Part shown: piece by piece, positions 1,347-1,523 of the stretch | How the letters are laid out: each line of letters starts with the position of its first letter | Position numbering within the stretch: the stretch's first letter is position 1 | NCBI GenBank assembly: GCA_001603275.1 | Contig: LUYM01000028.1 | Span: forward strand, 62,001 to 126,000 | DNA from: Actinomycetales bacterium Actino_02 | GTDB lineage: Bacteria > Actinomycetota > Actinomycetes > Propionibacteriales > Propionibacteriaceae | DNA length: 64,000 bases | Direction of reading: 5' to 3' | Translations under genes and position numbers: made by a program | The notes under the pieces: generated by a model | Told to the model about the DNA's origin: nothing | Database searches by the model: none | Seen by the model: only the letters and a program-made list of their open reading frames with translations

Positions 1347-1352
1347 TAGCCT
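1347..1352 (+). promoter_or_regulatory. -10 element of the cysteine leader transcript
   Basis: TAGCCT lies exactly 6 nt before the ATG of the polycysteine leader ORF, placing the predicted transcription start on or next to the A of that ATG. The leader would then be leaderless. No convincing -35 hexamer is visible, as is common in actinobacteria. Confidence 0.55.
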
Positions 1353-1358
1353 GGCCGC

Positions 1359-1430
1359 ATGCAGATCAGCCCCCGAATCCCGGTCCTCGTGGAATCGGCG
1401 CGCGCGCTGCGGTGTTGTTGTTGCGGTTGA
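1359..1430 (+). CDS. Polycysteine leader peptide, candidate cysteine-responsive attenuator for cysE
   Basis: A 23-codon ORF beginning MQISPRIPVLVE and ending ALRCCCCG: four consecutive Cys codons (TGT TGT TGT TGC, 1413-1424) directly before Gly and TGA. It has no Shine-Dalgarno sequence and starts 6 nt after a TAGCCT -10, so it is probably leaderless. It ends 93 nt upstream of cysE. Leaderless short ORFs with polycysteine tracts are known cysteine-responsive attenuators of downstream operons in mycobacteria; here the downstream gene makes the cysteine precursor. Two hairpins are possible in the gap: 1442-1446 with 1454-1458, and GATCGC/GCGATC at 1470-1475 with 1482-1487. The leader's TCCTC (1384-1388) could also pair with the cysE ribosome-binding site GAGGA (1512-1516). 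The mechanism is inference. Confidence 0.75.
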   Translation: MQISPRIPVLVESARALRCCCCG

Positions 1431-1523
1431 CCATGCAGTACCCGGAGCTGAATTCCGGCAAACGCCACAGATCGCAACTCGGCGATCACGGACACCCGCC
1501 GATCCACCGCAGAGGAATTACCG

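Follow-up and report, generated by a model that had tools for sequence, protein, structure and literature searches.

A putative leaderless polycysteine leader peptide upstream of cysE in Propionibacteriaceae

A short open reading frame at positions 1359–1430 is, judging from its sequence, very probably a cysteine-responsive leader-peptide attenuator of cysE, the serine O-acetyltransferase gene that follows it. The stretch of DNA analysed (the window; 64,000 nucleotides, G000:C28:62001-126000) belongs to a 3.05 Mb Propionibacteriaceae genome. The sensor half of the proposed switch is well supported by analogy and by its anatomy and is firmly held, the output half loosely. Anatomy, conservation and repetition on sulfur loci were read from the sequence, and from these we infer translation, the start site and a response to cysteine. 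The Cys-run leader switch is already known; new here are its targets and its family-wide breadth. The features of the region are as follows.

1347–1352, + strand: −10 element TAGCCT; the predicted transcription start is the A of ATG 1359.
1359–1430, + strand: leader ORF MQISPRIPVLVESARALRCCCCG, putatively leaderless; 23 codons, stop TGA at 1428–1430.
1407–1414, + strand: candidate anti-RBS arm CTGCGGTG, comprising Leu-Arg codons and the first bases of the Cys run; complement of 1505–1512.
1413–1424, + strand: four consecutive Cys codons, TGT TGT TGT TGC, putatively regulatory; Cys runs are kept among orthologous loci.
1431–1510, + strand: untranslated spacer, rich in C and poor in G (C 0.40, G 0.24), where Rho might load.
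1505–1512, + strand: partner arm CACCGCAG, reaching two bases into the cysE Shine-Dalgarno sequence.
1511–1516, + strand: cysE Shine-Dalgarno sequence AGAGGA.
1524–2309, + strand: cysE, serine O-acetyltransferase (TIGR01172, PF06426), putative regulated gene.

The initial annotation had described a 23-codon ORF with four Cys codons, starting 6 nt past TAGCCT and ending 93 nt before cysE, and the sequence agrees: the six bases GGCCGC separate TAGCCT (1347–1352) from the ATG at 1359, and the cysE ATG (1524) is separated from the leader stop by 93 nt. The Cys codons are numbers 19–22 of 23, with a Gly codon next. Profile searches with the cysE product gave a TIGR01172 match above cut-off and a PF06426 (SATase_N) match with E=2e-38. 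A LysR gene in the same orientation (439–1329) ends 29 nt upstream of the leader ATG. On the minus strand at 2393–2557, a 54-aa small membrane protein ORF, MTVVSRRVIARRHPIGWTVVAGLALLATAAALVAINWPTAVHEVSFAFSFAIGG, is convergent with cysE and has a near-identical copy in the sister genome (locus L002).

Cys-run leaders were predicted in Mycobacterium, in P. acnes (of the same family) and at B. longum cbs in 2005 (Seliverstov 2005, PMC1262725), and the novelty outside mycobacteria that the initial annotation implied must be given up. Those leaders share with the present one the Cys codon runs near the stop and the lack of a conserved intrinsic terminator, whereas the 2005 text is silent on leaderless starts, DUF4395-thioredoxin operons and a leader for O-acetylhomoserine sulfhydrylase. 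Mycobacterial Cys leaders are occupied by ribosomes (Shell 2015, PMC4633059), and those of M. smegmatis are cysteine-responsive according to Canestrari 2020 (Mol Microbiol 114:93), as described in PMC13236596 and PMC9094748. The Mycobacterium attenuators (PMC4633059, PMC9094748) and the cysE leader have in common a short ORF, a Cys run at its C-terminus, a position before sulfur or cysteine genes, several loci per genome and a start at the 5' end, predicted here from the −10 box. They differ in that the present host is a member of the Propionibacteriaceae, the putative target is a single SATase_N-type cysE, and leader-RBS pairing is confined to the window and its sister. The S. lividans metL leader MSTTSDRTPATEATTTPGARCMCRRMCAF before metNIQ (PMC8079986) is leaderless, as is predicted for the cysE leader, with a sulfur amino-acid target and alternating C-terminal Cys and Met codons; unlike the cysE leader, it is annotated as a methionine leader and serves a methionine importer. 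Classical trp/tna-type attenuators set downstream expression by ribosome pausing in a leader ORF, as is proposed here, but the window spacer lacks an intrinsic terminator and the start is predicted to be leaderless. A literature search for a propionibacterial cysE leader found none.

Orthologues of cysE (72–96% identity) were taken from 20 other genomes, and the oriented loci were searched for leaders with no −10 box required. It was found that 16 of the 20 loci carry a short upstream ORF ending in a Cys run, a count drawn from related genomes and not from independent events. The proposal of a polycysteine leader of the mycobacterial kind on cysE of a non-mycobacterial genome is supported by conservation across relatives. 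Loss of the Cys codons in close relatives, which the initial annotation had named as refuting, is seen in the same-genus L005, L009 and L013; together with L021, these are the orthologous loci among the 20 that have no Cys-run leader upstream of cysE. One of these three same-genus genomes, G026, carries a Cys leader on another operon (L147). The leader peptides of the 16 loci are listed below.

L002 (sister genome): MHSCPRVSAIAESVRALRCCCCG
L003/L004: MQISP(R/G)LAQSLSLACAL(LR/MC)CCRG
L007/L008: MR(I/T)DTARV(S/F)TPSLCCALAGCCCC
L010: MQMNPRPATLVSLARTLLCCRRG
L018/L020, GTG start: MSTRFDA(T/S)LPLGMGCRMLCCRC(I/C)
L019: MSARTEVIVPIGMNRRVLCCCCC
L006, L011, L012, L014–L017 (MHT group): MHTSRRLAVSLS...CMCCCRSLA-like

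The TANNNT box, 6 nt before the ATG in the window, is kept in relatives at a similar distance before the leaders found (TAGCCT, TACCCT, TACGCT, TACACT, TAGGAT), and a leaderless start is predicted. A length of 23 codons, with variable N-terminal residues, is seen in L001–L004, L007, L008, L010 and L018–L020, and again in L220–L222 of another genus; the spacers differ in length while this group stays constant. Because the Cys-run ORF is conserved in 16 of 20 loci while the remaining peptide diverges between relatives (MQISPRIPVLVESARALRCCCCG, MRIDTARVSTPSLCCALAGCCCC, MSARTEVIVPIGMNRRVLCCCCC), the ORF is best read as a functional leader.

The leader tracks the front of the operon, lying either directly before cysE or before DUF4395-thioredoxin-cysE. 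The latter arrangement is that of the MHT group, where the leader is located ~1 kb upstream of cysE; in L163/L164 the order is leader-cysE-DUF4395. Other genera of the family with a leader before cysE are g26 (Micropruina-like), g17, g27 (P. cyclohexanicum), g34 and g28, and g29 probably carries one as well. The cysE loci examined in g15, g32 and g7 gave no leader by a −10-based motif scan. In L003/L004, the interval between leader and cysE holds a small ORF, perhaps a remnant, that includes a thioredoxin-like stretch (ATVLLLNAGGR); L010 has another small ORF in that position.

In the proposed mechanism, transcription would start at the leader ATG, and a ribosome would immediately translate the 23 codons. 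With ample charged Cys-tRNA it would clear the four Cys codons and depart, leaving the downstream RNA in a form that disfavours cysE expression. A shortage of charged Cys-tRNA would make the ribosome pause at the Cys codons and cover 1407–1414; the cysE ribosome-binding site at 1505–1512 would then be left unpaired, and serine acetyltransferase would be made. We give such RBS unmasking an even chance of being the output step.

Within the window, 1407–1414 is a perfect 8-bp complement of 1505–1512, running into the Shine-Dalgarno sequence AGAGGA (P=0.019 against shuffled leaders). The pairing probability of this helix is 0.45 in the free RNA, 0.91 with the 5' 36 nt covered by a following ribosome and 0.00 with a ribosome stalled on the first Cys codon. 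Even here, the Shine-Dalgarno sequence is predicted to open only modestly when a ribosome stalls (from 0.34 to 0.52), by an amount that hinges on the assumed footprint. The initial annotation had paired TCCTC (1384–1388) with GAGGA; that motif lies where it was placed, and at best it extends the better 1407–1414/1505–1512 pairing. The sister L002 keeps the 8-bp leader-RBS helix, and in the 17 other loci the longest such helix was never beyond that expected by chance; only the window and L002 exceed it. We also compared partition-function accessibility of the Shine-Dalgarno sequence with 60 spacer shuffles in 19 loci: accessibility was not consistently lower than for the shuffled spacers, and in most of the 19 loci the gain upon stalling was not above them.

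A different pairing was seen by RNAalifold in the five g26 loci L180, L183 and L185–L187, in which the leader start AUGCAC pairs with GUGCAU in conserved Met-Cys-Met codons; no leader-RBS helix of the window type was found in these five. This pairing falls inside the leader coding sequence and might link initiation at the leaderless start with the Cys codons.

A tentative but appreciable possibility is that the same cysteine sensor acts through relief of Rho-dependent or other termination. The output would be premature termination of transcription: once the leader ribosome has departed, Rho would most probably load on the C-rich spacer. A ribosome paused beside the stop codon, or more efficient translation of cysE, would counteract this termination. 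Rho loading sites look C-rich and G-poor, and every spacer after the Cys leaders in the 19 loci is of this kind: C minus G ranges from +0.06 to +0.28 (mean +0.17), and g26 spacers have C of 0.45–0.50 and G of 0.11–0.18. Upstream regions of other window genes give ~0.00 (P=2e-7, with non-independent loci), these control regions possibly being mostly untranscribed promoter DNA. Same-strand gaps average +0.03 (n=16) with ranges that overlap those of the leader spacers, and the fact that 4 of the 16 equal the leader spacers in C-richness counts against the termination reading; C-rich spacers may merely reflect an unstructured 5' UTR. Folding gives no general support for RBS masking, which favours termination, as does the earlier proposal of Rho for Cys leaders (Seliverstov 2005, PMC1262725). 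A further supporting case is the leader MFKTAVASVCCCAMPSAACCRMR of the same-genus genome G014 (L025, reverse strand 97–256), similar to MTSTSTATMGCCCMPSMARCRMC and located before cysK-cysE; downstream of this leader lies an intrinsic-terminator-like hairpin, AAAGCGGCTC-TCTT-GAGTCGCTTTTTTT, with T7. The window spacer, however, has no T-tract terminator, a spacer of 50–120 nt is not obviously within the shielding reach of a paused leader ribosome, and the mechanism reported in M. smegmatis is RBS release (translation attenuation, as cited in PMC13236596).

A classical transcription attenuator was considered for the window and rejected, as there is no intrinsic terminator between leader and cysE. 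No hairpin with T-tract was found in 1431–1523, the lone listed site being inside the leader and at the chance rate. The hairpin that the initial annotation drew between GATCGC at 1470 and GCGATC at 1482 does have both repeats; no T-tract accompanies it, and the sister L002 has not retained it.

RBS unmasking and termination both retain the leader as sensor. It is improbable that the co-oriented LysR is instead the main regulator of cysE with the leader secondary: the LysR gene is only 29 nt from the leader ATG and adjoins the leader in several relatives, but the leader is retained without an adjacent LysR (e.g. L010, L011, L014), LysR persists in L005 and L009, which have lost the leader, and no cysteine-regulator model matched it above cut-off. 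Even less credible is a functional small Cys-rich peptide (e.g. metal or redox binding) that is not a cis sensor. The conserved Cys-rich tail would suit such a peptide; the divergence of all other residues would not, nor would the placement of the leader, always in cis to sulfur genes and at the operon front. That the ORF is a chance frame in a GC-rich intergenic region is highly improbable, short and poorly conserved at its N-terminus as it is, given its absence from 30 shuffles, the retention across divergent relatives of the Cys run, the predicted leaderless start and the length of 23 codons, and the recurrence of leaders on other sulfur operons.

The shuffles concern a leaderless pattern of TANNNT, 4–9 nt, RTG and a short ORF with at least 4 Cys among its last 8 residues. 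This pattern gives one match in the 64-kb window, the cysE leader, and 0 in 30 dinucleotide shuffles; in a whole-genome scan the cysE leader is again the sole match. A relaxed pattern, with three or more Cys among the final 9 residues, occurs 0.03 times per dinucleotide-shuffled window, and a 3-Cys pattern is very common across the whole genome. The leader DNA gave no match in a plasmid collection, and no Rfam cis-regulatory RNA family matched the region near 1330–1530.

Two more candidate leaders are present in the window's genome, both before sulfur genes. On the minus strand of contig C6, leader MTSTSTATMGCCCMPSMARCRMC (start 531300) is followed by two PF01053 genes and then by leader MFARGYTGSHRAITVPRMCCPR (start 528456), DUF4395, thioredoxin and cysK. 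The first PF01053 gene is O-acetylhomoserine-sulfhydrylase-like, the function names of the PF01053 genes and cysK coming from family and general sequence character only. In leader MFARGYTGSHRAITVPRMCCPR just two Cys codons are adjacent, and chance would produce such a pattern ~0.4 times per 64 kb. The case for this leader is made by conservation in G015 (MFARGYTGSGRAVVVTRMCCPR) and by the related RMCCR leaders that precede DUF4395 in G007, G008, G023 and G026. DUF4395 loci in another actinobacterial family have MSARLELMLTKRRAVDLCRVAGCCCCCCSC-like leaders. In leader MTSTSTATMGCCCMPSMARCRMC (G000:C6:531300, L257; also L172), leaderless by prediction, Cys and Met codons are interspersed, and it may sense both.

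A bolder reading, which we consider rather unlikely, is that of a multi-operon, ribosome-sensed sulfur regulon in Propionibacteriaceae, with Rho output instead of RBS masking and with co-reading of Cys and Met. It would comprise independent leaderless Cys leaders on cysE, DUF4395-thioredoxin-cysK and O-acetylhomoserine sulfhydrylase, and mixed Cys/Met leaders (MCMCCC; GCCCMPSMARCRMC) that would sense cysteine and methionine together. A PAPS reductase leader was considered and rejected because the gene is absent: no PAPS reductase family protein (PF01507) was found in genome G000, and assimilatory sulfate reduction via this enzyme may be missing from it.

With the cysE leader read as an attenuator, cysteine attenuation, known experimentally from mycobacteria, would span an entire further actinobacterial family and would act on the enzyme that commits the cell to making cysteine. 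DUF4395-thioredoxin genes would be tied to cysteine supply, and many genomes would gain unannotated small genes. The natural leader variants provide a set for separating RBS release from Rho termination.

The window CysE is of the long SATase_N type. Its best matches beyond the family are from Gammaproteobacteria and Hydrogenedentota MAGs at about 60–65%. Other family members have a short CysE that is ~44% identical to it. From this comparison, the long SATase_N-type cysE may have been acquired by old horizontal transfer.
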